Source: Butyrivibrio sp.
GTDB taxonomy: Bacteria; Bacillota_A; Clostridia; Lachnospirales; Lachnospiraceae
Assembly (NCBI GenBank): GCA_024690635.1
Contig: JAILOW010000133.1
Coordinates: 1 to 20,675, forward strand
DNA: 20,675 nt
Direction of reading: 5' to 3'
In this document: positions 5,014 through 20,549 of the stretch, piece by piece
Layout of the letters: each line of letters starts with the position of its first letter
Numbering within the stretch: position 1 is the first letter of the stretch
The notes under the pieces: model-generated
What the model was told of the DNA's origin: nothing
Seen by the model: only the letters and a program-made list of their open reading frames with translations
Databases searched by the model: none
Made by a program: the position numbers and the translations under genes

Positions 5014-5020
5014 ATTGGTT

Positions 5021-8000
5021 ATGAAACCGGTTAACGCCAAGTCTCGTATCATTAAGAGGCTTATTCCGCTACTTCTTGTCCCGGTGGTTCTTGGCAGTAA
5101 TTTTGCTGCTATCAATGTTTTTGCGGATGATCAGACCGCAGCCCAGGGGGAAGGAGCTGCAACAGAACAGAATGTGCAGCCCGATCAGGAACAGATTTCA
5201 CAGACAGAGACAATTGAAGAAGATGTTGAAGAGACTAATGAAGCTACAGACGAGACATCGGCAGAAGCTTCTGATGAGGCATCCCTTGAATCTTCAGACG
5301 AAAGCTCAGAAGCAGTAGAAGAGTCTTCGGATGAGGCGTCTTTTGACATTTCCGATGACGAGGAGTTATTGGAGCAGGAAGAGGAAGAACTTGCCGCAGC
5401 GCAGGATGAGACTCCTTTTATTTTTGTTCAGCTTGTTGTGGACGGAGATGATGAGGGAAAATCCGGATTTTACATGAATTACACCGATGGAAATCACAGC
5501 TATAAGTTGGGGGACGACTATAGCGAGGTTGAAGTTGATGATGAATATACTGCTGCATTCACCTATGGTATCAACACAGGATATAAGGTTGAACTGCAGG
5601 TTTCAGACGATGCTGAGCTTACCGCAGAGGACGGAGCGGCTACTATTAAGCTTTCTTCCGAGGAATACCTTGAAAATGAGTACACTATCACAGCCAGGGT
5701 ATCCTGCACAGATGAAAAAGATCCCCAAATTGGTGACGTGACACTGCCCACGGCAACATATGTAAAACTTGACGGGGTAAATGAATATATATCAAGCACA
5801 AGTGCATCGCTTGCGATTTCAGTAAGTGTTTCAGACGAGGGAGATGGAGAGTCCGGAGTAAAGAAAGTTACTCTTAAGACTTCTCTTGGAGATTTCGATA
5901 TGAGCGCGGAGGGCAGTGTTTATTCTTTTGCGCCGGGAAACTACGGCTCCTACGAGGTAACAGGTCTTGTTGCCGAGGACTATGCAGGTCATAAGGTGGA
6001 AAAGAGCTTTGAAGATCTCGGAAAAGCTTCTTTCATTCTTTGTTATTTCGACCCCAAAGAGGTTGGAAATATCAACGCATCTCTTAATATCTCAGATACA
6101 GACTGGTATTCAAAAAATAAAAGCGGAAAGATCGTTCTTACAGTTTCCGGACTTACCACCAGAAGGATCAGCGATATAACGGTTTACGATCCTGAAGAGG
6201 AAACAGTTCCCGCAAGTAGCGACCTTGCCATAAAGAGAGTAAGATCGAACTTTTATAACGTACAGACCTTTGAGCTTCCCGCAGACAGAGAGGGAAAGAC
6301 TGTTTACACCATCAAAGGACATTTTGTAGGTGACGAAAATACAGAGTTCAGCAAAGAGGTCACGACCATGATCGACAACACAGCTCCCAAGGGAGAAGTT
6401 AAGATCACACCTCTTCGGGACGACATCGTCTCCACTTTTGCAAGGATCTTTGCAGGTAAGAACCTGGTCAGATATAAAATTGAAGTCGCAGGCGATTGCG
6501 ACGAGAACGAAGGTCTTGAAGTCAGCGGCCTTGACTATGTACAGTTCAGAACAGCAGGCAGAGGGGAGCCTACAACCTTATTTGCAAAGAACAACAAAAA
6601 TTCTGACGGTTTCTATGAGTGGACGGAGAGAATTGAGGCTGGAAAAGACCAGGAGCTGATTGTTACTTTTGACGGAATCCGCCTTGTGGACATGGCCGGA
6701 AACCAGCAGACAGAAGTTGAAGTGATCGCTGACTTTGACAAGATCTATCTCGACTGGGGTGCACCCAGGATCAGTTATTCCGAGAAGAACCGAGTAAACG
6801 AGTTTGAAAATGTGGCTTACTACGACAAAGCTATCGAAGAGCAGGTAAAGATCGAAGACCTCAGCCTCGGCGAGAATAAGCCTGAGTTTAAAGAGATCAT
6901 TCACCACGAGGAGGATGGCATTGAGGCTGATGCAGATCATTGCAAGACAGATGAAAAGCTCTTTGCCATTTTCGATACAAGATTCTATGATTTTTCAGCA
7001 AAGAAAGACGGCGAATATCAGCTTAATACAAAGATAAAAGATACTTCGGGGAATGAAGGTCAGGCAGACAGCCGCGTCATGAGAGTAGATACCAAGGATC
7101 CCGTGATCGGAATAGCTCTTTCCGGTGGAGAGGCTCTTGATGATGCAGATGCAGAGCCTGTTTATACACCTGATGCTCAGGACGTTGTTGTAACTGTAAA
7201 AGAGCTCTGGATCGATAAGAGCAGATGCTCGGTATCCGTAACCGGTACAACAGACCTTGGTGAGGCAGTAAGCTTCAGCACAAAAGAATGGTCCGGCGAG
7301 CTTGGAGAAGAGGACCATGTGGCAACGATCTCAGGTCTTTCGGACGGTGAGTACACAGTTACCGTTGAGGCTTATGACCTTGCTCTTCATTCAGCATTTT
7401 CCGCATCAAGGAAGTTCTTTATAGATACCAAGAACCCTGAGGTGGTGCTCTCATTTGACACCTATGATGGTCAGAACGGCAAGTACTACAACGTTTCCAG
7501 AAAGGCAACCATCACCATCACAGAGTTTAACTTTGATGAAAAGCTGGTGGATGAGGATCTTTCACATGAGTACGGACATCCTTCCGAAAGCGACTGGAGT
7601 AATCCCGCACCCATGGTACACGTGAAAACCATCGACTTTAAGGAAGACGGAATTTATTCCCTTCAGATCAGCTGCAGGGATAAAGTAAAGCGCAAATCCA
7701 ACACCGAGAAAGAAGGCGAGTTCATCATAGACAGAACAGCTCCCGAGTTCTCAGTTGGCTATAACGCAGTATCTCCCAAAAACGGAAATTATTACAAAGA
7801 TACAAGAATAGCATCCATTACAGTAAAAGACCTCTCATTTGATGAGAACAAGCTTGAAGTAGGTACTCAGGCAATCGAAGAGGCAGCAGCACTTCCCGGC
7901 ATCAGCGGATTTTCCGGTTCCGGAATGGATCACGTAGGCACCATGACCTTTGCCGATGACGGCAACTACGGATACACACTTAAGTGCACAGACCTTGCGG

Positions 8001-9169
8001 GCAACAGCTCATCTGAATACGTATCAGATGTCTTTATCATAGACAAGACTGTTCCTGAGGTTAAGTTCTCAGGAGTTGAGAATTTCTCAGCCAATAACGG
8101 AGCGGTTGCACCTGTTGTTTCCTATGTGGACAAGCATATGGATATTGATGCAAGCTCTGTTACCATGACTGGCGCCAACAACGGAGCAGTATCCGTAAGC
8201 AGCCAGACAGCTCCTACAGAGAACGGCTTTGTTGTTTCCTACGGCGACTTTGCCCACGACAAGAGCATGGACGATCTCTATACTTTAGAAGCCCGTGTAT
8301 ATGACCTTGCAGGAAACGAAGCAAAGGAAGAGCTGGTATTTTCCGTAAACAGATTCGGTTCGGTATTCGTGCTCGGATCTGATGCCAGGGCTCTCAATGA
8401 GCAGTATTACACCAACGAACCCAAGGAAGTGTCCATAACAGAGATCAACGTGGATGACCTTACCAGAAAAGACGTATCCATAAGCCACGACGGAAACATC
8501 ACAGAGCTTAAGAGCGGCAAGGACTACAGGGTTACAAAGCAAGGATCTGATACCTCCTGGAAGACCTACACCTACACCCTTGGAAAAGAGAATTTTAACA
8601 GGGACGGAATTTATTCCGTAACCGTTTATACCCAGGACAGAGCAACCAATGTTCAGGACAACAAGAGCCGCGATGCGGAAGTAAACTTTGCGGTTGATAT
8701 AACTGCTCCCAGCATTGTGGCAGCAGACCTTAAAGACGGTGCGGTATTTAAAGAAGCTTCTCATGTTTTCAACGTAAATACCACAGACAACATGGGAGTT
8801 GTGGGACTTACCGTTTACAAGGACGGCGATGTGATAAAAGAGGTAAATGAAGCTGCCCTTGCAGCAGACGGCGGAATTGAAAGCTTTACGCTTTCTGAAT
8901 CCGACCAGCCTCAGACCATCACAATGGTTGCAGAGGATGTTGCAGGCAATAAAGAAACAGTAGTTTATAACAACATTCTTGTTTCCACCAAGGATAAGGA
9001 AGTTGTTATAGCTAATGATGATGCAATGGCACTTGAAGAAAAGCCCGAAGTTCTCGGAGCTGTAAGAGAGCGTAACTTCACGATCCTTTACATCATCATC
9101 GGACTTGCTGTAGTGGTTTTGGCAGCAGGCGCCGGACTTATCTTATACAAAAATAAATCATCCAGGTAA
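5021..9169 (+). CDS. Large exported Ig-like repeat protein with C-terminal membrane anchor
   Basis: The protein has 1382 residues. A signal peptide is clear: basic AKSRIIKR, a hydrophobic core and a probable cut after VFA (about residue 36). Residues 37-131 form a Glu/Ser/Asp-rich low-complexity linker, as often seen in surface stalks. The rest is a string of beta-rich units of roughly 100 residues, each ending or starting with a D-x-T-x-P strand: MIDNTAP (450), MRVDTKDP (687), FFIDTKNP (799), FIIDRTAP (901), FIIDKTVP (1005) and FAVDITAP (1223). They are paired with DG-x-Y...D-x-AGN motifs such as DGNYGYTLKCTDLAGN and with YY...ITITEFNFDE-type strands. This pattern is that of bacterial Ig-like surface repeats. 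One TM helix (about 1355-1376) followed by KNKSSR anchors it with the C-terminus inside; there is no LPxTG motif. The next gene starts 22 bp later, suggesting one transcript. The function is unknown; adhesion or an envelope-spanning role in the secretion locus are guesses. Confidence 0.85.
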   Translation: MKPVNAKSRIIKRLIPLLLVPVVLGSNFAAINVFADDQTAAQGEGAATEQNVQPDQEQISQTETIEEDVEETNEATDETSAEASDEASLESSDESSEAVEESSDEASFDISDDEELLEQEEEELAAAQDETPFIFVQLVVDGDDEGKSGFYMNYTDGNHSYKLGDDYSEVEVDDEYTAAFTYGINTGYKVELQVSDDAELTAEDGAATIKLSSEEYLENEYTITARVSCTDEKDPQIGDVTLPTATYVKLDGVNEYISSTSASLAISVSVSDEGDGESGVKKVTLKTSLGDFDMSAEGSVYSFAPGNYGSYEVTGLVAEDYAGHKVEKSFEDLGKASFILCYFDPKEVGNINASLNISDTDWYSKNKSGKIVLTVSGLTTRRISDITVYDPEEETVPASSDLAIKRVRSNFYNVQTFELPADREGKTVYTIKGHFVGDENTEFSKEVTTMIDNTAPKGEVKITPLRDDIVSTFARIFAGKNLVRYKIEVAGDCDENEGLEVSGLDYVQFRTAGRGEPTTLFAKNNKNSDGFYEWTERIEAGKDQELIVTFDGIRLVDMAGNQQTEVEVIADFDKIYLDWGAPRISYSEKNRVNEFENVAYYDKAIEEQVKIEDLSLGENKPEFKEIIHHEEDGIEADADHCKTDEKLFAIFDTRFYDFSAKKDGEYQLNTKIKDTSGNEGQADSRVMRVDTKDPVIGIALSGGEALDDADAEPVYTPDAQDVVVTVKELWIDKSRCSVSVTGTTDLGEAVSFSTKEWSGELGEEDHVATISGLSDGEYTVTVEAYDLALHSAFSASRKFFIDTKNPEVVLSFDTYDGQNGKYYNVSRKATITITEFNFDEKLVDEDLSHEYGHPSESDWSNPAPMVHVKTIDFKEDGIYSLQISCRDKVKRKSNTEKEGEFIIDRTAPEFSVGYNAVSPKNGNYYKDTRIASITVKDLSFDENKLEVGTQAIEEAAALPGISGFSGSGMDHVGTMTFADDGNYGYTLKCTDLAGNSSSEYVSDVFIIDKTVPEVKFSGVENFSANNGAVAPVVSYVDKHMDIDASSVTMTGANNGAVSVSSQTAPTENGFVVSYGDFAHDKSMDDLYTLEARVYDLAGNEAKEELVFSVNRFGSVFVLGSDARALNEQYYTNEPKEVSITEINVDDLTRKDVSISHDGNITELKSGKDYRVTKQGSDTSWKTYTYTLGKENFNRDGIYSVTVYTQDRATNVQDNKSRDAEVNFAVDITAPSIVAADLKDGAVFKEASHVFNVNTTDNMGVVGLTVYKDGDVIKEVNEAALAADGGIESFTLSESDQPQTITMVAEDVAGNKETVVYNNILVSTKDKEVVIANDDAMALEEKPEVLGAVRERNFTILYIIIGLAVVVLAAGAGLILYKNKSSR

Positions 9170-9191: not shown

Positions 9192-10733
9192 ATGAGAAAC
9201 ATTTTAAGAAAATCAGTAATATCTCTTGTGGCGGTGAGCATGATGCTCTCGCCCATAAGCGCAGCGGCTGCGGAGGACTCCGCTACTGCCGGAAGCTCAA
9301 AAGAAGCACTTGTATCCACAGTTGAATCCGTGGATCAGGCAATGAACGGTGTTGTTCAGGTAAATACGGTCTTTGACGATGATGACGGAAACAAGCATAT
9401 CATCTGCGGAGGCGCAGGATTTCTCATCGGATCTGTAGAGGGAAGCGAGTACGTTGTAACCAACATTCATATAGCAGATCCGGATAACGACACAAAAAAA
9501 GCTGCTTACAAGTTTTACAAGATCCCCAAGAAAGACGGCAAGTGGGATGATATAAAACCCTATGTGGAAGTGGTACTTGAAAACGACGTGACAACAAATG
9601 CTTCCATCGTAAATTCAAGTGAGAACCTTGACTTTGTGGTATTAAAGCTCTCGCAGCCTCTTTACAACAGGACTCCTCTGACACTCCTTGTAGCTGACAA
9701 GGGAGCCACAAAAAAGCCCTATTCCACAACGGATGCCGTGTACGGACTTGGATTTCCCGAAGCGGTCAGCTATGAAAATCCCGTTTGCTATACCAACGAT
9801 CAGGTGACAATGTCCTCGGGAAAGATCGCCAACGTAACCGACTTTGAAGGTGCAAAGCTTATACAGCACAACGCCCAGATCGGCACCAACAACTGCGGCG
9901 GTCCGCTTCTTAACGAAAACGGCCTGGTGATAGGAATGAACGAGCTTTCTGCAGACAGCAGTAATAACTACTATTCTCTTGATGCTTCAGACATAGCCAA
10001 TATCCTCACGGGGCTGGGTGTTGAGTTTAACGCTATCACCGCATCAGAGTATGAGGAATGGCTTCACAGAAACGATCCTGTGGAAGTAAAAAAGCCTGAA
10101 GCGCCCACACAGGTCATCGTAAAGGAAGAAAAGCACACAACACCCGCATGGCTCATTATTGTTGTTGCAGTTCTTGCAGCACTTGTAGTGGCACTTATAG
10201 TTCTTTTTATCGTAGTTATGGCAAAGCAGAGCAAAAAAGATCCCGCCAAGGGTAAGAAGCCTGAGAAGGAAAAAGATGTAAAGATCCCTCCAAGGAGCCA
10301 GATTTCTCAGATGCATCCCGTACAGGCGGTAAAGAACCCCGCAGGAAACATGGAGACCGGGGTTATCGGAGGACCGGCGGCTCAGGGTGCAACCACAGTG
10401 CTGAATGCGTCAGCGCCTGCAGCAGGAGAGCCGCTCATTACTTCCGGAACTCTTATTAGGAGAAAGAATTCCGACAACATCATAATCGACAAGCAGTCCT
10501 TTAGTATCGGCAAGGACAGCCTGCATGTGGACTACTGCATAACCGACAATCCTGCAGTCAGCAGAACCCATGCAATGATAAACACAGTGAACAATCAGGT
10601 CTTTTTACAGGATTGTCATTCCACAAACGGAACCTTTATCAACAACAGAAAGCTTGCTGACGGAAGCTCGGAGCCCTTAAATAACGGGGACATCATCAAG
10701 CTTGGCGATGAGGAATTCCAGTACAGGATCTGA
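9192..10733 (+). CDS. Membrane protein: trypsin-fold domain with Cys in place of Ser, plus cytoplasmic FHA domain
   Basis: The protein has 513 residues. A signal peptide or N-terminal helix (1-27, ending ISAAAA) is followed by a trypsin-like domain (about 40-280), a TM helix (318-343), a Lys/Pro-rich linker and a C-terminal FHA domain (about 428-513). In the protease domain the His region is VTNIHIADP (His93), the Asp region is SENLDFVVLKL (Asp147), and the usual GNSGGPL is NNCGGPLLNENGLVIGMN, with Cys235 (TGC) at the nucleophile position. FHA landmarks are visible: FSIGKD (437-442), SRTHA (457-461) and STNGTFINN (477-485). The topology predicted is protease outside and FHA inside, a layout suited to linking an envelope event to phospho-threonine binding. 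It is either a cysteine-nucleophile protease or a non-catalytic binding module. The start has AAGGAAAAG a few bases upstream and lies 22 bp after the Ig-repeat gene. The domain calls are firm; the role is not known. Confidence 0.85.
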   Translation: MRNILRKSVISLVAVSMMLSPISAAAAEDSATAGSSKEALVSTVESVDQAMNGVVQVNTVFDDDDGNKHIICGGAGFLIGSVEGSEYVVTNIHIADPDNDTKKAAYKFYKIPKKDGKWDDIKPYVEVVLENDVTTNASIVNSSENLDFVVLKLSQPLYNRTPLTLLVADKGATKKPYSTTDAVYGLGFPEAVSYENPVCYTNDQVTMSSGKIANVTDFEGAKLIQHNAQIGTNNCGGPLLNENGLVIGMNELSADSSNNYYSLDASDIANILTGLGVEFNAITASEYEEWLHRNDPVEVKKPEAPTQVIVKEEKHTTPAWLIIVVAVLAALVVALIVLFIVVMAKQSKKDPAKGKKPEKEKDVKIPPRSQISQMHPVQAVKNPAGNMETGVIGGPAAQGATTVLNASAPAAGEPLITSGTLIRRKNSDNIIIDKQSFSIGKDSLHVDYCITDNPAVSRTHAMINTVNNQVFLQDCHSTNGTFINNRKLADGSSEPLNNGDIIKLGDEEFQYRI

Positions 10734-10794: not shown

Positions 10795-11097
10795 ATGGGA
10801 ATGGATGGAACAATTGGTGTTCAGGAACAGGGCGTTTACGATGCTATATCTGATCTTGACAGAAACAAAGCAGCTCTTGACACATGGCTTGGTGACATGA
10901 TGACTCTTAAGTCACAGGTTGTTGCTGAGTGGCTTGGTGATGCAGCAGGACAGTTCGATGCTAACTACACACGTCTCGATCAGGATATGCGCACAATGGA
11001 GGATGCTATCGATGCATTCAAGAATTGGGCACAGGAGACACTTAACAGCTACGCAGAGCTGGATGCACATCAGACAAACAGCATGTCAATGATTTAA
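10795..11097 (+). CDS. WXG100 family secreted protein (EsxA-like)
   Basis: The 100-residue acidic protein has no signal peptide and fits the WXG100 helical hairpin: helix one (about 10-43), the turn motif W46-L47-G48, and helix two (about 52-90). A second W-L-G occurs at 31-33. Near the C-terminus Y86-AEL-D90 matches the Y-x-x-x-D/E signal used for type VII export. These proteins are exported as helical dimers through EssC-type machines and often act as escorts or structural substrates. The start has AAGGAG eight bases upstream; ATG 10801 in frame is a weaker alternative. It is followed 15 bp later by a partner-size gene and then essC, the usual setting of an esx pair. Confidence 0.9.
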   Translation: MGMDGTIGVQEQGVYDAISDLDRNKAALDTWLGDMMTLKSQVVAEWLGDAAGQFDANYTRLDQDMRTMEDAIDAFKNWAQETLNSYAELDAHQTNSMSMI

Positions 11098-11103: not shown

Positions 11104-11112
11104 ATGAGGAAA

Positions 11113-11418
11113 ATGGCAGATAGATTAGTCAACGCCGAGCTTCTCAGAGGCCAGGCAAACAGCTTCAGATCATTTGCAAATGATCTTACAAACAGGATTT
11201 CAGATACACAGAACGCGATCGATACACTTACAACAGCTGTACACGGCGATGCAAGTGCAGCTTGCTTTAATCAGTGGGATACAGCAAAGGCAGCTATGCT
11301 TACCTATGTTCCCAAGCTCAACGATGTTGCTGACAGACTTGAGGCTGCAGCCAACACCAACATGAACCTCGACACAGGTCTTTCAGGATCGCTCAAGGTC
11401 GAAGTTACAAACAGATAA
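11113..11418 (+). CDS. WXG100-like partner without the WXG motif
   Basis: From ATG 11113 the product is 101 residues (MADRLVNAELL...). Two long amphipathic helices (about 5-41 and 50-82) are separated by a short turn, the same architecture and size as its upstream neighbour. The turn reads V43-H44-G45-D where a WXG protein has W-x-G, keeping the glycine but not the tryptophan. A tryptophan occurs later (W55). No YxxxD/E signal is seen at the C-terminus. A likely role is as heterodimer partner of the upstream protein, in the way EsxB-like proteins pair. This rests on position, size and helix pattern rather than a recognised sequence motif. The 68-bp gap to essC contains a strong hairpin. Confidence 0.75.
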   Translation: MADRLVNAELLRGQANSFRSFANDLTNRISDTQNAIDTLTTAVHGDASAACFNQWDTAKAAMLTYVPKLNDVADRLEAAANTNMNLDTGLSGSLKVEVTNR

Positions 11419-11485: not shown

Positions 11486-14400
11486 ATGAACTATCAACTG
11501 ACTCTGTACGGCAACAAAATATACAAAGAGATCAAGATCAAAGACAGCTTCGAGTCCGTGACCATAGGTACCTATAAAGAGTGTCAGGTCAGCCTTAAAA
11601 GGGAAGCCTTCCTTAGCGACTTCAAGATTGAGATAAAAAGGCGCGATGACAAATTCGTTGCCATCTGCGACGAGAGCATCTGCTTTAAGAGCGATACGGC
11701 CGGAGCCATCGGACAATACCTTTACGAACTTACCACACAAAACGTTACCAGTGTATGCTACACTGCTTCTGACGTTCCTTTTCTGTACATGGATTTCTCC
11801 ATGGATTTTGGAGCCCTTCAGGATAACTACGACCTTGCCATCACCATCCCTCAGGGGAAAAAAGTTGTTATCGGTGGTATAAGCGGCGCGGATATCTATG
11901 TTGCCGAAAAGATGGGACAGGGAGACTACATTTCCCTTACCTACAACGGCGAGTCAGGCTACTGCATAGGTCTTGAAAAGATAGGTCAGGGAATTGCCGT
12001 AAACGGTATTCCTGTCAGAAAAAAACAGATCAATATCCCTTCAAAAAAATTCCTGTCATTCTACAATATTTTCTTTTTCCTGGATGGGGAGGTCATAAGA
12101 ACCACCACCTCTTCAGGAGTTCAGACAAACCTTCCCATGGAAAGGAAGGATGAGCAGGCCAAGGCGGCGCCCTATCCGGAATTTATCAGAAGCGCAAGGC
12201 AACAGTATATAATGCCCGATGAAAAGATAGATATACTGCCCCCAAAGTCAGAGCCTACAGCAAATGCAAGAGGACTTATCCTTACCATTCTGCCTATGCT
12301 CATGACCATGGCTATCATGCTGCTTGTAAGGTCAATGATGAGCTCCAACAAAATGTATGCTCTTTACTTTGCAGCCATGATGAGCGCCGGAGTCATCGTA
12401 TCAATAATGAATTTCTTTATTGATAAAAAGGACCTGAAGAAAAAGAAAGCGGACAGGATCGTAAGATACAACGACTATCTGACAAAGAAAGAAGAACAGA
12501 TAGAAAAGCTGCGAAACGAGGAGAGGCTGGTTGCCTGCAAGATGGGCACCTCCACCACCGAGACATTAAAGAGCATCGAAAGCTTTGATGCAAGACTCTT
12601 TGAAAAAGAAAAGACTCACAAGGACTACCTTACTGTCAGCATCGGAACAGGAACCATAGAGTCCGAAAACCAGATTTCTTTCAGGGAGCAGGAATACCTT
12701 GAAACCGATGATGAGCTTATGAATTACCCCGAGCTCATACATGATAAATACAGATATATCGAGGATATGCCCATAGATATAGCCTTAAAGGACCTTGACG
12801 CCGTGGGCTTTGTGGGCAGCAGGAGCAGGCTCTATCAGATGATGAAAAACCTCATCATCTCTCTTGCGGGGCAGCACTTTTACAAAGATGTAAAGCTCAT
12901 TCTTATCATGGATGAGGAGGATGTGGAGCTCTTTTCCTGGGTGAGATGGCTCAGAAACAGCATGGACGACCAGATGATAAGGCGTTTTTTGATGTTCGAT
13001 GAGGACAGCACCAAGAGAGGCCTTGAGTTCATCTATTCAACTCTTTCACAAAGAGAGGGGCTTGCAAACGATATCACAGGAAAAAGCAGATCCATGAGCC
13101 CCGACTATGTGGTACTTGTATACAGATCAGAAAAGATAAGCGGTCATCCTGTCAATGAATATATTTCGAAGGCCAGAAGCCTTGGATTTTCCTTTTTGTT
13201 CTTTGAGGAAAGAGAAGAGCTTCTTCACAGAGCCTGCCAGAAGCGCGTGTTCCTAAGCGACAGCGATTATACCGGCTTCATTCAGGACATCGAAGACGGA
13301 ACCAGAATGCAGCCTTTTAAGTTTGAACATGTTCCTGCGGAAGCAGTGAAAAGAGCTGCAGTTAAGCTGGGCGGCGCTTATGTAAATGAAGTAAGCCTTG
13401 AAAGCACCCTTACCAAAAACATCACTCTTTACGAGCTCATGGGCATTATGAACGCCTACGACCTTGACCTTGGACAGAGATGGAAAACTTCAAAGATCTA
13501 TGAAACTATGGCAGCGCCTCTTGGCGTAAAGAGCGACGGCTCTGTCATAAGCCTTGATATCCATGAAAGAGGACACGGCCCTCACGGCCTTGTGGCAGGA
13601 ACCACAGGTTCCGGAAAATCAGAGATCGTTCAGTCCTATGTACTTTCCATGGCATCGCTGTTCCATCCTTACGAAGTCGGATTTATCATCATCGACTTTA
13701 AGGGAGGCGGCATGGCAAACCAGTTCAGGGATCTGCCTCATCTGAACGGTGCCATAACAAACATCGACGGAAAAGAGATCGAAAGATCCCTTAAATCAAT
13801 TAAGGCGGAGCTCCTAAAGAGACAGGAACTTTTTGCAAAATATGATACCAACAGGATCGATGAATATATTAAACTGTACAAGGAAGGCGTGACCCCGATC
13901 CCGCTTCCTCACCTCATTCTCATTGTGGATGAGTTTGCGGAGCTAAAGAGCGAGCAGCCTGAGTTCATGAAAGAGCTCATAAGTGCAGCCCGTATCGGAC
14001 GAAGCCTTGGTGTACACCTGATCCTTGCCACACAGAAGCCTGCAGGCGTTGTAAATGAGCAGATCTGGTCCAACTCAAGATTCAAGCTCTGCCTCAAGGT
14101 GCAGGATAAAAATGACAGTAATGAAGTGCTCAAGTCACCTCTTGCTGCAGAGATCAAAGAGCCCGGAAGAGCTTACCTTCAGGTTGGCAACAACGAGATC
14201 TTCGAACTCTTCCAGTCAGCCTACAGCGGAGCGCCCGCACAGGTGGGCAGCATAGACGAGGCAAGAGAATTCCGTATTTGCCAGGTGGGTCTGGACGGCA
14301 GAAGATCTGTTATCTATGAGCAGAAAAAGGGTAAGGCAGAGGGCAATATCACTCAGCTGGATGCACTTGTAAACAGGATAAACGAGTACTGCAAAGAGCA

Positions 14401-16045
14401 GCATATTGCAAAGCTTCCCGACATATGTCTTCCTTCTCTTGCAAATGTCATTCCCTTCACACTGGATGGCTACAAGCCAAAGAATGCAGACATCACTGTT
14501 CCTATGGGTGTTTACGACGATCCTTCCCATCAGTATCAGGGAATTGTTGATTTCGACCTTACCCAGGACAATTTCTTTATCGCAGGATCTGCGCAGTACG
14601 GCAAGACCAATATCCTCATGAACATCATAAGAGGACTGGCAGAGAGATATACTCCTTCGGAAGTTACCATTTACGCCATGGACTTTGCATCCATGATACT
14701 TGGAAGCTTCAAGGAGCTTAAACATATGGGAGGCGTGGTATTCTCCTCTGACGAAGAGAAGGTCACAAACCTCTTCAGGATCCTTGAAAAAGAGATCACC
14801 AGGAGAAAAGAGATCCTTTCTTCCATGGGACTTTCCTCCTTTGCATCCTATCTGGATGCAGGAAAGAAGGAGCTTCCTCAGATCGTGGTTCTTCTTGACA
14901 ATTTCCACGCATTCAAAGAGCTCTATCCCGGCCTTGAGGGAAATTTCCTGAACCTGTGCAGAGAAGGTCTTTCCATGGGTATATCTGTTGTGGCAACTGC
15001 CTCACAGTCAGCAGGAGTTGGACTTAAGCTTATGGCTGCCTTCTCCAAGAAGGTGCCTCTTAACTGCAATGATGACACAGACTATGCACTTTTACTTGGA
15101 AGATGCAGGCTTCGTCCCAACGATACCCCCGGAAGGTGTATAGTAGAGCTTGACAGAGAGCTGTACGAGTGCCAGACCTACCTGGCCTTCGATGCAGAAA
15201 AAGAGATCGACAGGATAAGGCAGATCAAAGCCTTTATCGAAGAAAAGAACGCACAGAACAAGGACTTCCGCGGAAGCTTCATTCCCGAAGTGCCCAAGGA
15301 GTACACAGATGAGTTCATCAAAGAGAACTATCCCGACTTTACTCTCGGCGAGTACGAGGTTCTCCTTGGTATCAACTACTCCAATACAATGCCTCTTTCC
15401 ATCGATCTTAAGAGCAAGAACCTTATCTGCATGAGCGGCCTTCGCCATAAGGGCAAGAGAAATTACATCACATATATGCTAAGTGCTCTTAACAATAACC
15501 GGGACAAGGCGCCTGTTGAGATTTATATCCTTGATTCCTTCGAGCACCTGCTGGAAGAGAACAAGGACCTGGAAAGCGTAAAGCTCTATACGCTGATACA
15601 CGACGAGATAAATGCAAAAGTCCAGGAGATAGCAAAGACTCTGGAGGAGAGATATCAGAAGATGATGTCCGGCGATACGCAGTTCATAAAGGAGGAGCCT
15701 CTCCTTATGATCCTCATCAACTCCAACGACTATTGCCAGTCCATGCCTATCGGAAATCCGATGCTGAATGTCTACAGACAGATCATCAGCAGAGCAGGCT
15801 CTTTAAAGGCAGCAGTCATCCTTACGGACATGCCTACAACTGCTCAGGGCTACTCGTCACCGGAGCTGGTAAAGGCTGTATACAACAGCAAGAACCTGAT
15901 GATCTTCGAGGATCTGAGAGTCCAGAAGGTGGTAGAACCTCCTGTGCAGATGCTGAGGGCAAACAACAAGCCGCTTAAGCCGGGAGATATGTTCTATGTA
16001 AGTGAAGGCAATATCGGAAAGATAAAGACGCCTTTGTTTAAATAA
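11486..16045 (+). CDS. essC: Type VII secretion ATPase EssC (FtsK/SpoIIIE family)
   Basis: This is the motor and core membrane component of type VII secretion, which binds WXG100-type substrates and drives export. The 1519-residue length fits EssC (about 1480 in Staphylococcus). The N-terminal 1-210 region holds two degenerate FHA-like domains (SVTIGTYKECQVSL near 24-37; VVIGGISGADIYV and AVNGIPV in the second). Two TM helices follow (about 264-281 and 291-312), then a charged coiled region. ATPase 1 is complete: Walker A GTTGSGKS (705-712), the IIDFKGGGMANQF segment, Walker B with D815-E816 in LIVDEFAEL, and the IGRSLGVHLILATQKP motif. ATPase 2 has Walker A GSAQYGKT (1034-1041) but LLDNF (Asp1138-Asn1139) where the catalytic Glu is expected. 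ATPase 3 has GLRHKGKR (1318-1325), lacking the Ser/Thr, and no acidic Walker B in LLMILINSND. The start has AGGA nine bases upstream. Confidence 0.94.
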   Translation: MNYQLTLYGNKIYKEIKIKDSFESVTIGTYKECQVSLKREAFLSDFKIEIKRRDDKFVAICDESICFKSDTAGAIGQYLYELTTQNVTSVCYTASDVPFLYMDFSMDFGALQDNYDLAITIPQGKKVVIGGISGADIYVAEKMGQGDYISLTYNGESGYCIGLEKIGQGIAVNGIPVRKKQINIPSKKFLSFYNIFFFLDGEVIRTTTSSGVQTNLPMERKDEQAKAAPYPEFIRSARQQYIMPDEKIDILPPKSEPTANARGLILTILPMLMTMAIMLLVRSMMSSNKMYALYFAAMMSAGVIVSIMNFFIDKKDLKKKKADRIVRYNDYLTKKEEQIEKLRNEERLVACKMGTSTTETLKSIESFDARLFEKEKTHKDYLTVSIGTGTIESENQISFREQEYLETDDELMNYPELIHDKYRYIEDMPIDIALKDLDAVGFVGSRSRLYQMMKNLIISLAGQHFYKDVKLILIMDEEDVELFSWVRWLRNSMDDQMIRRFLMFDEDSTKRGLEFIYSTLSQREGLANDITGKSRSMSPDYVVLVYRSEKISGHPVNEYISKARSLGFSFLFFEEREELLHRACQKRVFLSDSDYTGFIQDIEDGTRMQPFKFEHVPAEAVKRAAVKLGGAYVNEVSLESTLTKNITLYELMGIMNAYDLDLGQRWKTSKIYETMAAPLGVKSDGSVISLDIHERGHGPHGLVAGTTGSGKSEIVQSYVLSMASLFHPYEVGFIIIDFKGGGMANQFRDLPHLNGAITNIDGKEIERSLKSIKAELLKRQELFAKYDTNRIDEYIKLYKEGVTPIPLPHLILIVDEFAELKSEQPEFMKELISAARIGRSLGVHLILATQKPAGVVNEQIWSNSRFKLCLKVQDKNDSNEVLKSPLAAEIKEPGRAYLQVGNNEIFELFQSAYSGAPAQVGSIDEAREFRICQVGLDGRRSVIYEQKKGKAEGNITQLDALVNRINEYCKEQHIAKLPDICLPSLANVIPFTLDGYKPKNADITVPMGVYDDPSHQYQGIVDFDLTQDNFFIAGSAQYGKTNILMNIIRGLAERYTPSEVTIYAMDFASMILGSFKELKHMGGVVFSSDEEKVTNLFRILEKEITRRKEILSSMGLSSFASYLDAGKKELPQIVVLLDNFHAFKELYPGLEGNFLNLCREGLSMGISVVATASQSAGVGLKLMAAFSKKVPLNCNDDTDYALLLGRCRLRPNDTPGRCIVELDRELYECQTYLAFDAEKEIDRIRQIKAFIEEKNAQNKDFRGSFIPEVPKEYTDEFIKENYPDFTLGEYEVLLGINYSNTMPLSIDLKSKNLICMSGLRHKGKRNYITYMLSALNNNRDKAPVEIYILDSFEHLLEENKDLESVKLYTLIHDEINAKVQEIAKTLEERYQKMMSGDTQFIKEEPLLMILINSNDYCQSMPIGNPMLNVYRQIISRAGSLKAAVILTDMPTTAQGYSSPELVKAVYNSKNLMIFEDLRVQKVVEPPVQMLRANNKPLKPGDMFYVSEGNIGKIKTPLFK

Positions 16046-16071: not shown

Positions 16072-17361
16072 ATGTCAGACGAAGCACAATTTTTTGTTTC
16101 GGGTAAAAGTGAATGGGATTCGGATCATTCTGCTTTTTCGGGACAGGAGCTAAAGGGTGTTGAAAAAAACTACAGACTTATCGTACTTACTGCAGGAAGT
16201 GCCAATGATGCCATTAAAAACAGCGGCCTTCCCATATCGCCTTTTGAAGTGAGCATTTCAGGCACCATGGTTGCCAATTATGAAAAAAAGGGCGATGTCC
16301 TTGAAAGCTTCACAAGGAACATTCACGGTGAAGTTCTTTCTCTTGTGGATGATCCCTTCAACGATGCAGTGACCACAACTCTCGGAGATATTCTGGTCAT
16401 TGCGGAGCGTGGACTTGCCAAGGGTGAAAACAATTTAGAGGATGATATTAAAAATATCCTGAACGGAACCTATGACACCTGTGAAACTGTGGTGATGGAT
16501 GAGGCGACGGTTCAGGCTCTTCAGGAGCTTCTTGGTGAGGACGGAACCCAGGTGTTCCTCGGATATTTGAAGGACTGCGCCGGAGATACCGGAATAGGCA
16601 CAGCCACAAAATATTACTATGTTGACGGATACAGATTTACCATCAGTAAGGATGGAAATAAGATAAGACTTGTTGATGTATTATCCAGAGTTGACGGCAA
16701 AAATAACGCAGCAAAAGAGTTTATGGACAAACTTGCCAAAACCGCCGACGGAAACGGCTGGCAGGAATTTGAGATAAGAAGGATCTTAAGACAGGACGGC
16801 GTTCCCGTAAACAGAATGGATCTGTCTGATCTTCAAAAGAACTATCCCGAGCTTGGGGAGTATATCACCATCAGACAGTCAGGCACTGCCGAGAGGATGG
16901 CTGCTGCAGGAAGAGCAGGAATCACTACCTTCAGAGACTCCTTCAACTATCCCAAGCAGGTTAGCGAAGCAAAGGTTAAATGGCAGAGCGGTCACAAGGT
17001 GGCGGCAGTTGCGGATGCTGCAGGCATCGTAATGGACGTTATCACAGTGGGCGTTGATCTGCATCAGAATAATACTGATTACTACGGAAATGCCGATGTT
17101 ACTGTGGCTAATGTTCAAAGAGGTATCACCGATGCGGTGGTTGACCTTACAACAGGCGCAGGAGCAGCTGCAACGGGAGCTGTGATCGGAACCTTTATTG
17201 GCGGTCCTGTGGGAACTGCAGTCGGCTTTCTTGTTGGAGCAGGAATAGACCTTGCCATGTCTTATATTGATGTAAACGGCGACGGAAAAGGACTTACCGA
17301 CGATCTCAAGGATTTCGCCGATGACGCCGTTGACTTTATGACAGGGGGAGCAACAGCGTAA
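16072..17361 (+). CDS. Candidate type VII substrate/effector with glycine zipper and EF-hand-like loop
   Basis: The 429-residue protein is of no family I recognise and has no signal peptide. Residues 1-300 are a mixed alpha/beta region with several acidic stretches (for example 82-131 and 143-170). Residues 362-391 form a glycine/alanine-rich hydrophobic stretch (GAGAAATGAVIGTFIGGPVG and on) of the glycine-zipper type seen in many secreted toxins and membrane-inserting proteins. Directly after it, residues 400-411 read D-V-N-G-D-G-K-G-L-T-D-D, matching the 12-residue calcium loop DxNxDG...D. The gene follows essC by 26 bp with TAGGAG eight bases before the ATG, and overlaps the next gene by one base (TAATG). 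An effector role is inferred from the position next to essC, the zipper and the overlapping two-TM partner. It could also be a structural or scaffold part of the machine. Confidence 0.6.
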   Translation: MSDEAQFFVSGKSEWDSDHSAFSGQELKGVEKNYRLIVLTAGSANDAIKNSGLPISPFEVSISGTMVANYEKKGDVLESFTRNIHGEVLSLVDDPFNDAVTTTLGDILVIAERGLAKGENNLEDDIKNILNGTYDTCETVVMDEATVQALQELLGEDGTQVFLGYLKDCAGDTGIGTATKYYYVDGYRFTISKDGNKIRLVDVLSRVDGKNNAAKEFMDKLAKTADGNGWQEFEIRRILRQDGVPVNRMDLSDLQKNYPELGEYITIRQSGTAERMAAAGRAGITTFRDSFNYPKQVSEAKVKWQSGHKVAAVADAAGIVMDVITVGVDLHQNNTDYYGNADVTVANVQRGITDAVVDLTTGAGAAATGAVIGTFIGGPVGTAVGFLVGAGIDLAMSYIDVNGDGKGLTDDLKDFADDAVDFMTGGATA

Positions 17362-18101
17362 TGGAAAATATACTCAGATTTGAAAGCAAATGCGGCGCGA
17401 CATTTCGTAAGACCATGATCGTGATCTTCTGGCTTCTTACCCTGTGCGGCACTGTGATATCCGGGTCTGTGTACTTCAAGCTCCTTAAAAAAGTATCCGG
17501 GATATCCGTCTATGACGATGATCAGAAAAGATTTTTCATATACCTGATACTGCTTGTTATACTGACTCATTATCTTTTCACAAGGTGCCTGAGATATCAG
17601 TGCGTGCCGTACTGGAACAGGATCTTTTCCAAAAACCAGTTAAAGGAACTGCTCCGGGATGAAGTATTTGAGCCAATTGACGATTCGGAAGATGCCCACA
17701 CTAAGCTCGTTATGGAGAGCAGAAACTGGATCTGCATAAGCGGATATCTTTTTCCCAAGGCTCTGACAGCATCTCTAAACGGCTACAATCCAAGGCCCAG
17801 CATAGGCTACGGACATGTGAGGGCGTGTTTTATAAACGGCAGGACAGTGACAGAATCCGCCAGGGGATACATCTGGCTTACAGAAGATCAGGACCGCGTT
17901 GTTGCAAGACTTAAACAGACAACAGCAGGGGACTGCAGGAGAAAATACGGACATGACTATACCAAAGTCTTTGCAAAAATTTACAAAGAGGTTTTGGGAT
18001 ACACGGATTATAAAAATGTTACCAACGAAGATCTCTGGCGCATCAGAGAGGTTTGGGATCAGCAGGTAAAATCCATAGAAGGAAGGTGTCAGAATGGGTG
18101 A
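17361..18101 (+). CDS. Two-TM membrane protein, possible immunity protein or partner of the upstream gene
   Basis: The 246-residue protein has TM helices at about 17-39 and 57-73 with a short loop between them, then a soluble cytosolic domain of about 170 residues containing several Trp, Tyr and Cys residues (for example Y149-GHVRACFINGR and the C-terminal EDLWRIREVWDQQ). No family was recognised. The ATG shares its A with the TAA stop of the 429-residue gene, so translation is probably coupled and the two products may be needed in fixed ratio. This layout, together with a hydrophobic candidate effector upstream, fits a membrane immunity protein, but no residue proves it. Its own stop overlaps the next gene by eight bases. 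Confidence 0.55.
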   Translation: MENILRFESKCGATFRKTMIVIFWLLTLCGTVISGSVYFKLLKKVSGISVYDDDQKRFFIYLILLVILTHYLFTRCLRYQCVPYWNRIFSKNQLKELLRDEVFEPIDDSEDAHTKLVMESRNWICISGYLFPKALTASLNGYNPRPSIGYGHVRACFINGRTVTESARGYIWLTEDQDRVVARLKQTTAGDCRRKYGHDYTKVFAKIYKEVLGYTDYKNVTNEDLWRIREVWDQQVKSIEGRCQNG

Positions 18102-18414
18102 TGTGATAATCGATGTGGAAACCATGAACACCCTCGAGGGTTATTGCAAGAACTGTTCTTCCAAGGCGAAAAGCGCAAAGAACAAGCTTGAGACACTGAG
18201 AGTGACCATGGCCAATATGTATTCGGGCCAGGCCTATGACAATGTTCAGACCGGTATCGACATGCTAAGGAGTCAGTACACTCTTATAATGAACAGCTAT
18301 GATGTGCTTGCGGATTACGTCCGCGGAGTAAAAGATCTGATGGTTACCAATGATGATCATCTCGGCACAAGGGCAGCAGAAGTAATAGACTATACGACAC
18401 CGAACGGGGACTAA
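18094..18414 (+). CDS. WXG100-size helical protein with YSG turn
   Basis: The 106-residue protein has two predicted long helices (about 8-40 and 46-88) around a turn with Y43-S44-G45, a variant of W-x-G in which an aromatic residue and the glycine are kept. There is no signal peptide and the product ends DYTTPNGD. The GGAAGG site seven bases before ATG 18094 supports the start, which overlaps the end of the preceding gene by eight bases. It is paired with the next gene 3 bp downstream, much as WXG100 or LXG-partner (Lap) pairs are encoded. Likely secreted or an escort for the candidate effector; inferred from size, turn and position. Confidence 0.65.
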   Translation: MGDVIIDVETMNTLEGYCKNCSSKAKSAKNKLETLRVTMANMYSGQAYDNVQTGIDMLRSQYTLIMNSYDVLADYVRGVKDLMVTNDDHLGTRAAEVIDYTTPNGD

Positions 18415-18417
18415 AAA

Positions 18418-18744
18418 ATGAAGGGTTCAACATCAAGCGAATACATAAAAGCAGATGAAGGAAAGATTGAGGATCTTTCTGAGATCTACAAGCAGATGAA
18501 TGAATTTTTGGTGGATGTGGAGAGTCTTGGAGATTACAAAGCCAAGATCGCGCAGACCATAGCCACCGATAAATGGCAAGGAATAAACAAGGACTATTTT
18601 GTAACCGCATCTGAGTATCTGAGTACCTATGAAGACGGAGTCAGGGCTTGCTATGACAAACTTAAGGAGGACATCCAGCTTCTGATAGACAATGTGGACG
18701 GATTTACCGCAGTATCGCCTTCTACTCAGAGCCTTGGAGAGTAA
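18418..18744 (+). CDS. WXG100 family-like protein (WQG motif)
   Basis: The 108-residue acidic protein has a helical hairpin pattern: helix one (about 14-47), then D-K-W53-Q54-G55 in the position of the WXG turn, then helix two (about 58-94) that includes FVTASEYLSTYEDGVRACYD. A Y-x-x-x-[DE]-like stretch is not found near the end (the tail is AVSPSTQSLGE). The start has GGGGA seven bases upstream and follows the previous stop by 3 bp, so the two are probably translated together. It is the second canonical WXG-motif protein in the locus, which suggests a second substrate or escort pair dedicated to the downstream half. Confidence 0.7.
   Translation: MKGSTSSEYIKADEGKIEDLSEIYKQMNEFLVDVESLGDYKAKIAQTIATDKWQGINKDYFVTASEYLSTYEDGVRACYDKLKEDIQLLIDNVDGFTAVSPSTQSLGE
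18736..18741 (+). promoter_or_regulatory. Ribosome binding site favouring a TTG start at 18750
   Basis: GGAGAG, inside the end of the preceding gene, is 8 nt from TTG 18750 but 14 nt from the in-frame ATG 18756. TTG is therefore a credible start, though the two-codon difference has little effect on the product. Confidence 0.45.
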
Positions 18745-18749
18745 AAACG

Positions 18750-19223
18750 TTGATAATGGACGAAAAGCAACTGGAAACAGTAGACTACGAAAATGTTCTT
18801 TATAAATCTTATGCATTTCCATACAGGCAGTTTAAAGCCGTAGTGCAGGAATTCAGTGACGGCATAAGAAAAAGAGGACTAAAGGCAAAGGGGATGTTCT
18901 TTTATACCCTTGACGGAATAGACCAAAAAGACGAGGGAGATTCAGAGGTTCGTGTAACCCTCTATCAGCCACTGGCTCAGCCCGTCAGTCATGTTGACGA
19001 CGGATACATGTTTGAAGACAGACATTACTATGGCGGCCTTACCTACAGAGTAGTGGAAGATGATTATGACAGAAATGCCCAGAAGGCATATTTCGAGATC
19101 ATGGACGAGGCAAAAGAAAAAGGAAAAAGAGTAACCTCGGCTTTTTACAACGAGTTCTTAGAGACAAAGGATGAAAAAGGCAACAAAAAGGTCATCTGCG
19201 TCATAAAGGCACAGATAGAATAA
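18750..19223 (+). CDS. Small soluble protein, perhaps DUF5085/GyrI-like
   Basis: The 157-residue product (155 if ATG 18756 is used) has no signal peptide or TM helix. The pattern ENVLYKSYAFPYRQFKAVVQEF, then GMFFYTLDGI, EVRVTLYQPL, and a second half with YRVVEDDYDRNAQKAYFEIM and KKVICVIKAQIE alternates strands and helices. This gives an overall shape like the effector-binding (GyrI-like) fold. From memory it resembles the DUF5085 proteins often found near type VII genes, but this cannot be confirmed here. It lies 5 bp after the WQG protein, so it belongs to the same transcript. A chaperone or adaptor role for the neighbouring helical proteins is only a suggestion. Confidence 0.55.
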   Translation: MIMDEKQLETVDYENVLYKSYAFPYRQFKAVVQEFSDGIRKRGLKAKGMFFYTLDGIDQKDEGDSEVRVTLYQPLAQPVSHVDDGYMFEDRHYYGGLTYRVVEDDYDRNAQKAYFEIMDEAKEKGKRVTSAFYNEFLETKDEKGNKKVICVIKAQIE

Positions 19224-19241
19224 CAGAAGGGTGAGATAACG

Positions 19242-19595
19242 ATGGCTTCGGGAAAAGGACATTGGGAGAGACAGGAAGATCCTGAAAAGGTGGCACTTAG
19301 AAACAGATATTCTGATCTTCTTACAAAGCTCTACGAGTATCAGGGCGACATATCTCTGTATCATTTTTCGGCAGAAAATTCCAGACCCACAGTGGAGATG
19401 AGTACTGTGATCTGCGCTGTAAGCGGTGACTACGCCGATAAATACGACGAGTACAGAAAGAAATGGATCGCAGACGGTTTTGCCCTTCATCAGGGGGCTG
19501 AGGCCACAGAGACAAGTCTTGCCACTAAAATTTCAGAGATAGAAGAGATCAGAAACGGCATCGATATTTATACAAATGTATGGGTTGAGGACTAA
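19242..19595 (+). CDS. Small helical protein of unknown function in the type VII row
   Basis: The 117-residue, charged protein has no signal peptide. A helix (about 13-36, KVALRNRYSDLLTKLYEYQG), a middle strand-like stretch (TVEMSTVICAVSG) and a long helix (about 63-112) are visible. Its size and alpha-helical content are like the small partner proteins of LXG effectors, but it has no WXG motif. The start has AAGGGTGAG just upstream. The gap to the gene before is 18 bp and to the gene after 12 bp. I do not recognise the family. Confidence 0.55.
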   Translation: MASGKGHWERQEDPEKVALRNRYSDLLTKLYEYQGDISLYHFSAENSRPTVEMSTVICAVSGDYADKYDEYRKKWIADGFALHQGAEATETSLATKISEIEEIRNGIDIYTNVWVED

Positions 19596-19607: not shown

Positions 19608-20549
19608 ATGAAGACGGAACAGTTATACTCACATATCGCATACACCCTTGAAGAGGGAGATAAATTCTCGGATCTTGGACTTAAGACCCTGCAGACAAGG
19701 CCTGTAAAAAACTGCGTGGTTCCGGGAAGGCTTATTTTAAACGGCTCGGACCGCCTTGTATACAAGACAGAAGAGCTGTCATCCGTGGCATCGCTTTCAA
19801 GCAGGATAGGTGTAAAGGAGTCCCTTCGGATATTATGGGATCTTTCGGCGCTTCTGACAGAACTTGAAGACAGCGCATTTTTGGATAAAAGATACATAGA
19901 CCTTGATGCGGAGCACGTGTATTTAAGGCAGGAGGATGAAACCTTCAGATTTATTCTTGTGCCGGCTGAGACTGCATCAGGGGAGAAGGCACAAAAGGCC
20001 AAGTCCTTTGTGGGAGGTCTTCTGGCAAGATGTGAAAAAGAAGCGCCTGCCGCAGAAGCTGCAAGACTTCTTCCGGGCATTACCGACAGTACTTCTGCGG
20101 AATATTCACAGATCGATGCAATGCAGATGCTGGATGTTATAAGAGATGTCTTTGCGGGAGCGGAAGTGGAGCTTCCTAAGCTTGTTCCTGAAAAGGAGCA
20201 CAAAACGGAAGGGCTTAATGATGCTCCTTTGGTAGAAGAGGTTGAGCTCAGGTACAGAGGGCCTCACGGGGCTTTTGCTTTCTTTGACAGGAAGGAAGAG
20301 TTCTTTATCGGAAAAGAGGTAAGTAACGACGGCGTGATCAACCTCAATTCTGCTGTCAGCAGAAGACATTGCAAGATCGTAAACAAGGGAGTACGCAGCT
20401 TTGTGGAAGATCTGGGCAGCAAAAACGGAACTATGCTGAACGGAGTGGGACTTCTTCCCGGACAGCGCTCTGCTCTTACCACCGGGGATAAGCTTCAGAT
20501 CGCGGATATGGTATTTGATGTGACGGTACATCAGAAGATCACAGGATAA
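19608..20549 (+). CDS. Cytosolic FHA-domain protein with DUF6382-like N-terminal region
   Basis: The 313-residue protein has no signal peptide or TM helix. The N-terminal region (about 1-190) reads NGSDRLVYKTEELSSVASL, KESLRILWDLSALLTELEDS, then RYIDLDAEHVYLRQEDETFRFILVPA. From memory this matches the DUF6382 region that precedes FHA domains in clostridial proteins, and its strand-helix-hairpin order recalls a degenerate kinase lobe as in EssB. The C-terminal FHA domain (222-308) keeps the phospho-threonine-binding landmarks: FIGKE (233-237), SRRH (251-254) and GSKNGTMLNG (270-279). A likely role is to bind a phosphorylated partner, possibly one of the membrane FHA proteins' regulators or a kinase outside the window. 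The start has AGGA six bases upstream. Confidence 0.8.
   Translation: MKTEQLYSHIAYTLEEGDKFSDLGLKTLQTRPVKNCVVPGRLILNGSDRLVYKTEELSSVASLSSRIGVKESLRILWDLSALLTELEDSAFLDKRYIDLDAEHVYLRQEDETFRFILVPAETASGEKAQKAKSFVGGLLARCEKEAPAAEAARLLPGITDSTSAEYSQIDAMQMLDVIRDVFAGAEVELPKLVPEKEHKTEGLNDAPLVEEVELRYRGPHGAFAFFDRKEEFFIGKEVSNDGVINLNSAVSRRHCKIVNKGVRSFVEDLGSKNGTMLNGVGLLPGQRSALTTGDKLQIADMVFDVTVHQKITG

Follow-up and report, generated by a model that had tools for sequence, protein, structure and literature searches.

A gene encoding a membrane protein with an outer trypsin-like and an inner FHA domain is located in a type VII secretion locus of Butyrivibrio, within the 20,675 nucleotide stretch of DNA that was analyzed (hereafter the window). 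The gene (9192..10733, +) is an open reading frame of 513 codons with Pfam matches to Trypsin_2 and FHA. It directly precedes two genes encoding WXG100 proteins (10795..11097 and 11104..11418, both + and both PF06013), which are followed by the gene encoding the EssC ATPase (11486..16045, +; TIGR03928, 1148.7 bits). On its other side lies a gene (5015..9169, +) for a 1,384 amino acid long TsdI/TseI-like envelope protein with Ig-like domains (Pfam Big_13 and Big_3_3), in which a signal sequence and a C-terminal transmembrane segment can be read and which is probably the counterpart of TsdI/TseI. This Ig-like protein is 65% identical over 396 amino acids to one in a related locus (L084). Near the end of the window a TsxJ-like DUF6382-FHA protein is encoded [19608..20549, +; PF19909 (27.1 bits, cut-off 26.7) and PF00498]; the phosphothreonine residues of its FHA domain are present in the alignment, and the 50 structural matches listed for its model are of the FHA type. 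Between essC and this gene are found a 429 amino acid protein (16072-17361) with a Gly-rich hydrophobic C-terminal stretch and no convincing Pfam match (best E 0.04), and ORFs of 106-246 amino acids (18094-19595), one of which is DUF5085-like just under the cut-off and one weakly YwqH-like. Judged by sequence, they resemble a substrate of type VII secretion and its partners. No kinase gene was found within the 20,675 nucleotides, and kinase D, phosphatase F and YukD-like B, which belong to T7SSe/T7SSj loci, were not seen in the window.

The trypsin-FHA protein starts with a signal peptide (about residues 1-26; 9192..9269, +; helix 2-19 in the predicted model), followed by an HtrA-fold domain (about residues 41-290; 9312..10061, +), a transmembrane helix (residues 319-346; 10146..10229, +) that is a helix in the model and is hydrophobic with a Lys-rich C-terminal side, a disordered linker (pLDDT < 50 at residues 349-413) and a cytoplasmic FHA domain (residues 438-505; 10503..10706, +) recognized by Pfam and by conservation over 161 aligned rows. 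The linker contains two T-x-x-[L/I] motifs (10353..10409, +), E388-T389-G-V-I and A400-T401-T-V-L404, which are GarA-like candidate phosphosites, and the FHA domain has the phosphothreonine-site residues G440, K441, S457, R458, H460, T478 and N479. An earlier reading made from the sequence alone (the sequence-only reading) had described an envelope trypsin-fold domain joined through the membrane to an FHA domain, and Pfam, the model and the sequence, with its predicted transmembrane helix, bear this out. The sequence likewise contains, as that reading had stated, the motif NNCGGPL (residues 233-239; 9888..9908, +) with a TGC codon for Cys235 (9894-9896, +), together with His93 (CAT; 9468..9470, +), a residue that is altered in many relatives, and Asp147 (GAC; 9630..9632, +).

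The predicted model and structure comparison confidently assign the outer domain to the trypsin/HtrA fold, and the closest solved folds are those of HtrA. Compared to the HtrA/Deg proteases HtrA1, HtrA3 and DegS, Cys235 takes the place of the Ser of the His-Asp-Ser triad of HtrA (S1C), Asn233 occupies the place of the oxyanion-hole Gly that precedes the nucleophile in the Ser forms, the triad is changed in relatives, and a transmembrane helix and an FHA domain are present instead of a PDZ domain, which was not found in a Pfam scan of the protein. His, Asp and Cys are all present, as in PA-clan cysteine peptidases. Viral 3C and 3C-like proteases also have a Cys in a trypsin-like fold, but these enzymes keep a Gly before the Cys, which the window protein does not have, and the triad is not kept as a unit in its family. 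Kinship with viral proteases was considered but is not favoured: among viral folds a trypsin-like serine protease matched best (E 1.8e-13) and HtrA1 matched slightly better still (E 5.2e-14), in a comparison in which a poor or absent match would not rule out kinship.

The window contains EssC and WXG100 proteins, as does the canonical T7SSb. EssB/YukC was found in none of the 34 EssC-bearing related genomes at E 1e-5, with a positive B. subtilis control; four genomes without a trypsin-FHA match (G057, G058, G059, and G075) are among those negative for EssB/YukC. Several components by which T7SSe and T7SSj have been defined, EssC, WXG100 (two in T7SSe), the Ig-like TsxI and the DUF6382-FHA protein TsxJ (PMC11217815, Garrett 2024), are all found in the window. 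An EssC-like ATPase, WXG100 and a DUF6382-FHA protein are shared between the window and T7SSe, T7SSf and T7SSj, and an Ig-like TsxI with T7SSe and T7SSj, while a YukD-like protein, a PP2C phosphatase, a kinase and a ParA/TadZ-like ATPase (the latter in T7SSf) are shared with relatives of the window (PMC11217815). The window and its relatives mix parts of T7SSe/j and T7SSf. The locus is best read as a type VII system that probably lacks EssB and comes nearest to T7SSe/j/f, with a component set that resembles T7SSe/j plus a T7SSf-type ATPase. The passages of the 2024 survey used here name no trypsin-FHA component, and the word trypsin occurs 0 times in its main text (PMC11217815); no trypsin-FHA type VII component was found either in the titles and abstract openings of the literature searched.

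To relate the gene to type VII secretion in relatives, 79 genomes were searched that belong to the genus of a related genome, G001, whose locus record is titled Butyrivibrio, and the gene was present in 20 of them at E 1e-12 or better and EssC in 31. The gene and EssC co-occur: the gene was found in 18 of the 31 EssC-bearing genomes versus 2 of the 48 EssC-less genomes (Fisher p 9e-8, with kinship ignored). In a grouping that was made after seeing the data, it was present in 17/17 genomes with a 'type A EssC' versus 1/14 other EssC-bearing genomes. Among genomes with the nearer EssC type, 15 have the gene and essC on one contig, giving 16 pairs that are 1.1-12.6 kb apart, except for one at 32.8 kb. 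Copies of the gene and of essC do not always pair off: two genomes (G073 and G080) each carry the gene twice along with two near-type essC, G080 with a third, divergent essC in addition, but in G151 the gene is matched once beside two essC, and in G234 three times beside two essC. From a scan of genome contigs 80 loci were kept, of which only one (L001) matched over nearly the full length and most others over the FHA end.

The gene neighbourhood was analyzed in 40 fetched stretches, representing 40 of the 52 distinct places in one search set and 1 of 3 in another, with gene families defined as single-linkage BLAST groups. Families of PP2C phosphatases (21 stretches) and Ser/Thr kinases (18 stretches; either family in 23) are neighbours of the gene in some relatives, as are essC (15), YukD-like (15), DUF6382-FHA (14), a ParA/AAA_31 ATPase read as TadZ-like (12), and an Ig-like envelope protein (11). 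From the PP2C, kinase, YukD-like and ParA families, one or two members each were compared with Pfam, and two members were confirmed for PP2C and for the kinase. A full essC family member is absent from 25 of the 40 stretches. In the 14 stretches in which the protein has a His-Asp-Ser (HDS) triad, PP2C was found in 14 and the kinase in 13; in the 23 stretches with a protein lacking Gly at position 233, each was found in 5. The possibility that Cys forms belong to type VII systems and Ser forms do not was refuted by mapping EssC in the genomes: in 6 of the 14 HDS stretches (G307, G229, G290, G139, G453, and G417), essC lies about 10-20 kb off on the same contig.

The triad was examined in 222 distinct homologous proteins, taken from the best 120 of 204 and the best 120 of 348 matches. 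Among these listed homologues, residues 93/147/235 are HDS in 94 and HDC in 43 (together 137), and the remaining 85 have other combinations: SNC (16), TNA (10), HDY (9), ANA (9), QDC (7), TGV (5) and a further 18 rarer ones, with 2 of the 222 gapped at the His. The 13 best homologues among the matches listed (P0002-P0014) are all HDC. A tree was calculated with the catalytic columns masked, after 161 rows had been reduced to 128; the rows dropped were three spurious ORFs (L164_2703, L169_8577, and L169_11064), one short protein (P0088) and all those with at least 93% identity to a row that stayed in. The tree is of a quick kind that flags long branches that meet, and its root is a chosen outgroup, so that counts of changes are undirected. 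Rows without Gly at position 233 form one clade of 87 (SH-aLRT 93, which by this quick method deserves moderate trust).

Within this clade the triad has changed repeatedly. With each triad residue coded as kept or not in 86 clade rows, parsimony requires at least seven changes at the His, at least five at the Cys and at least five at the Asp, the direction of which is not told. HDC is found in 42 of the 87 rows, in which H, D and C are by definition invariant. The Cys is kept in 25 of the 33 rows that lack the His and is absent from 10 of the 53 rows that have it, HDY and HDI sisters among them. The sequence-only reading had asked whether Cys235 is conserved with His93 and Asp147 in homologues. 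It is not: position 235 is C, Y, I, V, N, A, or S within the clade. Ranked by entropy over 234 columns, H93 is 119th (about the median), C235 69th and D147 38th, and G236, G237, P238, and G248 never vary. A comparison of His loss and Cys loss in independent pairs yielded just four pairs on supported branches. Cys235 has no common disulphide, since no outer-domain Cys accompanies it throughout (at most 29 of 77). By these alignments the scaffold is under selection, but the three triad residues are not conserved together. Conservation of the triad as a unit across the family, characteristic of PA-clan cysteine peptidases, was not found; recurrent change of catalytic residues in HtrA-fold homologues, as in HtrA-type pseudoproteases, was. 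Of the two roles that the sequence-only reading had offered, a thiol protease is disfavoured by the variation at position 235 in the same clade and by the frequent persistence of the Cys without the His, and the comparison supports a peptide-binding pseudoenzyme, in that the triad changes repeatedly while the fold and the GGPL loop persist. The Cys triad is genuine, yet one among many states of a repurposed HtrA domain. Activity of the window protein itself is disfavoured but conceivable, because all 13 of its best listed homologues are HDC. A distant lineage (L167, L168, and L169) has SNT, DNT and TNT, in which Thr replaces the nucleophile and the His and the Asp are both absent; its genes are near several WXG-like ORFs, and the fold has apparently been retired here too, by the same replacement (Thr) that MamO shows.

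Among the 222 homologues listed, all 100 Ser forms have Gly at position 233, which we take to be Gly193 of chymotrypsin, and 76 of the 77 Cys forms have another residue there; Asn is the commonest in the non-Gly233 clade (70 of 87). The contrast between GNS and NNC therefore touches two catalytic positions. Because 32 retired Ala, Val or Thr forms outside the clade (in the same 222) retain Gly233, its loss marks the clade and not retirement generally, and the contrast partly reflects one inherited clade difference. An exception among the Ser forms is the genome-derived L151 (SNS), in which this position is Ser. Some active trypsin-like enzymes have a non-Gly residue at 193, and Asn tolerates left-handed backbone angles; nevertheless, the loss of Gly233, as read from the alignment, disfavours catalysis.

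The linker and the FHA domain are conserved. Among ungapped positions in the 222 listed homologues, T401 is Thr in 221/221, L404 is Leu in 220/220 and T389 is Thr in 215/219. In a structure-based alignment of 79 of 120 sequences, T401 and L404 were likewise invariant and T389 was almost invariant. Since alignment programs may pull motifs into register, linker motifs were also counted without alignment in 220 of the 222 proteins, leaving out two without a recognized FHA start. T-x-[VILM]-L (x not Pro) was present in 218 of 220 linkers and in at least two copies in 192, compared to 7.6 (maximum 17) and 0.125 (maximum 2), respectively, expected from 200 shuffles in which related linkers are treated as independent. 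A stricter motif, [ED]T-x-[VILMN]-[LMI], is present in 96 of 120, and ETGVI and ATTVL of the window protein do not match it. In the wider set that includes genome loci, T401 is present in 151 of 161 rows; the ten others are one truncated row, L147 (HDC), three with QDV or TDV, one with TNT and four of the outgroup. The seven phosphothreonine-site residues of the FHA domain are kept in 150-160 of the 161 rows. GarA/OdhI-type proteins likewise combine an FHA domain that has phosphothreonine-binding residues with a conserved Thr motif in a disordered segment next to it, although FHA domains can also act without phosphate. The suggestion that the outer domain is coupled to the inner FHA domain in a type VII locus gains support from the persistence of both linker motifs and FHA site, and this conserved candidate phospho-motif with its FHA domain is, as far as sequences tell, a more interesting finding than the Cys triad.

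We propose, with a probability of roughly 60%, that the protein is a phospho-regulated scaffold of a type VII system without EssB, in which a repurposed HtrA domain does the binding on the outside, and that this membrane protein is probably a sensor or scaffold of the secretion machine more than an enzyme. It would cross the membrane once, as part of a type VII secretion system of the kinase/FHA type, and its outer domain would derive from an HtrA protease of the His-Asp-Ser type by a change from Ser to Cys. This domain would mainly bind protein or peptide without needing catalysis, which the window protein may have lost, and its ligand could be a signal in the envelope, the TsxI-like protein with its Ig-like domains or a substrate of secretion. 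Inside the cell, a Ser/Thr kinase would phosphorylate Thr401 and/or Thr389 in the T-x-x-L motifs of the flexible linker, and the phosphothreonine would be bound by the protein's own FHA domain, within one molecule or between neighbouring ones, on the pattern of GarA/OdhI, or alternatively by that of the DUF6382-FHA protein, while the PP2C phosphatase would reverse the phosphorylation. Outer binding and inner phospho-assembly could then control assembly or activity around EssC, and the protein perhaps fills the membrane role of EssB elsewhere.

Both halves of this proposal have precedents. MamO is an HtrA pseudoprotease turned metal-binding module, which like the predicted domain has an HtrA fold with an altered nucleophile kept for a non-proteolytic role; it differs in binding metal, in its transporter domain and in having Thr for Ser (PMC4794232), and it is not a type VII protein. 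GarA has an ETTS phospho-motif in an unstructured extension, and its own FHA domain binds the phosphothreonine (PMC5448819). The window protein shares with GarA/OdhI the Thr motif in the disordered flank of an FHA domain with a phosphothreonine site, but GarA is soluble and controls metabolism (PMC5448819), whereas the window protein is membrane-anchored, belongs to a secretion locus and has its motif between the transmembrane helix and the FHA domain, with phosphorylation being a prediction. The 2024 survey raises phosphorylation control of type VII secretion as a possibility, from gene neighbourhoods (PMC11217815). The protein is a new candidate membrane component for EssB-less, kinase/FHA-linked type VII systems of Lachnospiraceae, with Cys235, Thr389, and Thr401 as concrete sites for testing. 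If the proposal is true, it adds another case beside MamO of HtrA domains repeatedly leaving proteolysis and, within type VII secretion, connects threonine phosphorylation with a binding domain in the envelope.

A point against a pseudoprotease is that HDC is kept in the 13 best listed homologues and in 42 of the 87 rows of the clade, which is more than a role in structure alone would require. This, together with the confident HtrA fold of the model and an Asn at position 233 that tolerates left-handed angles, would suit a thiol protease in which Cys235 of the HDC subset works as the nucleophile, with 3C-like chemistry on an HtrA scaffold, and brings a secreted substrate to maturity, like mycosin of the mycobacterial systems; degenerate relatives would have lost activity secondarily. 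We consider this unlikely, as the Gly233 of all Ser forms is gone in all but one of the Cys forms and Cys and His come and go separately in the clade. Slightly less likely again, in our estimate, is that Cys235 forms a covalent adduct with a secreted peptide, or cleaves it, and signals through a GarA-type phospho-FHA switch; if true, HtrA would here exist in a cellular thiol form that is linked to phosphorylation on Ser/Thr.

Persistence of the Cys in most His-less rows, and the precedent of MamO as a metal-binding HtrA pseudoprotease (PMC4794232), would agree with a non-hydrolytic thiol (a redox sensor, metal ligand or covalent peptide trap) kept without His or Asp, but Tyr, Ile, Val or Asn at position 235 in other clade lineages and the absence of a Cys partner throughout make this improbable. 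We regard as more doubtful still an ordinary envelope HtrA quality-control protease fused to an FHA domain without a special type VII link. The HDS members, 94 of the 222 listed, do resemble active HtrA-type domains in sequence, and most stretches are without a full essC family member; against this stand the association with essC, the HDS genes that are also near essC, and the change of the triad, which speaks against housekeeping proteolysis. The reading we prefer remains a repurposed HtrA domain in a phospho-regulated scaffold.

Two further observations concern FHA domains and their possible ligands. By eye, the N-terminal FHA region of EssC (11486-12200) is without the GR/SRxH/NG phosphothreonine signature, and the other two FHA proteins of the locus carry GK, SRxH and NG. 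In relatives, small membrane proteins with repeats are encoded near the trypsin-FHA gene, with ETTVM in 8 and ETELL in 4 of the 40 stretches. Examples with repeated ETTVM/ETTVL or ETELL [L163:703-1431(-), L166:13941-14528(+), and L155:13481-13987(+)] adjoin kinase, phosphatase and trypsin-FHA genes, and such proteins are candidate multivalent FHA ligands, perhaps TseK/TseH-like.
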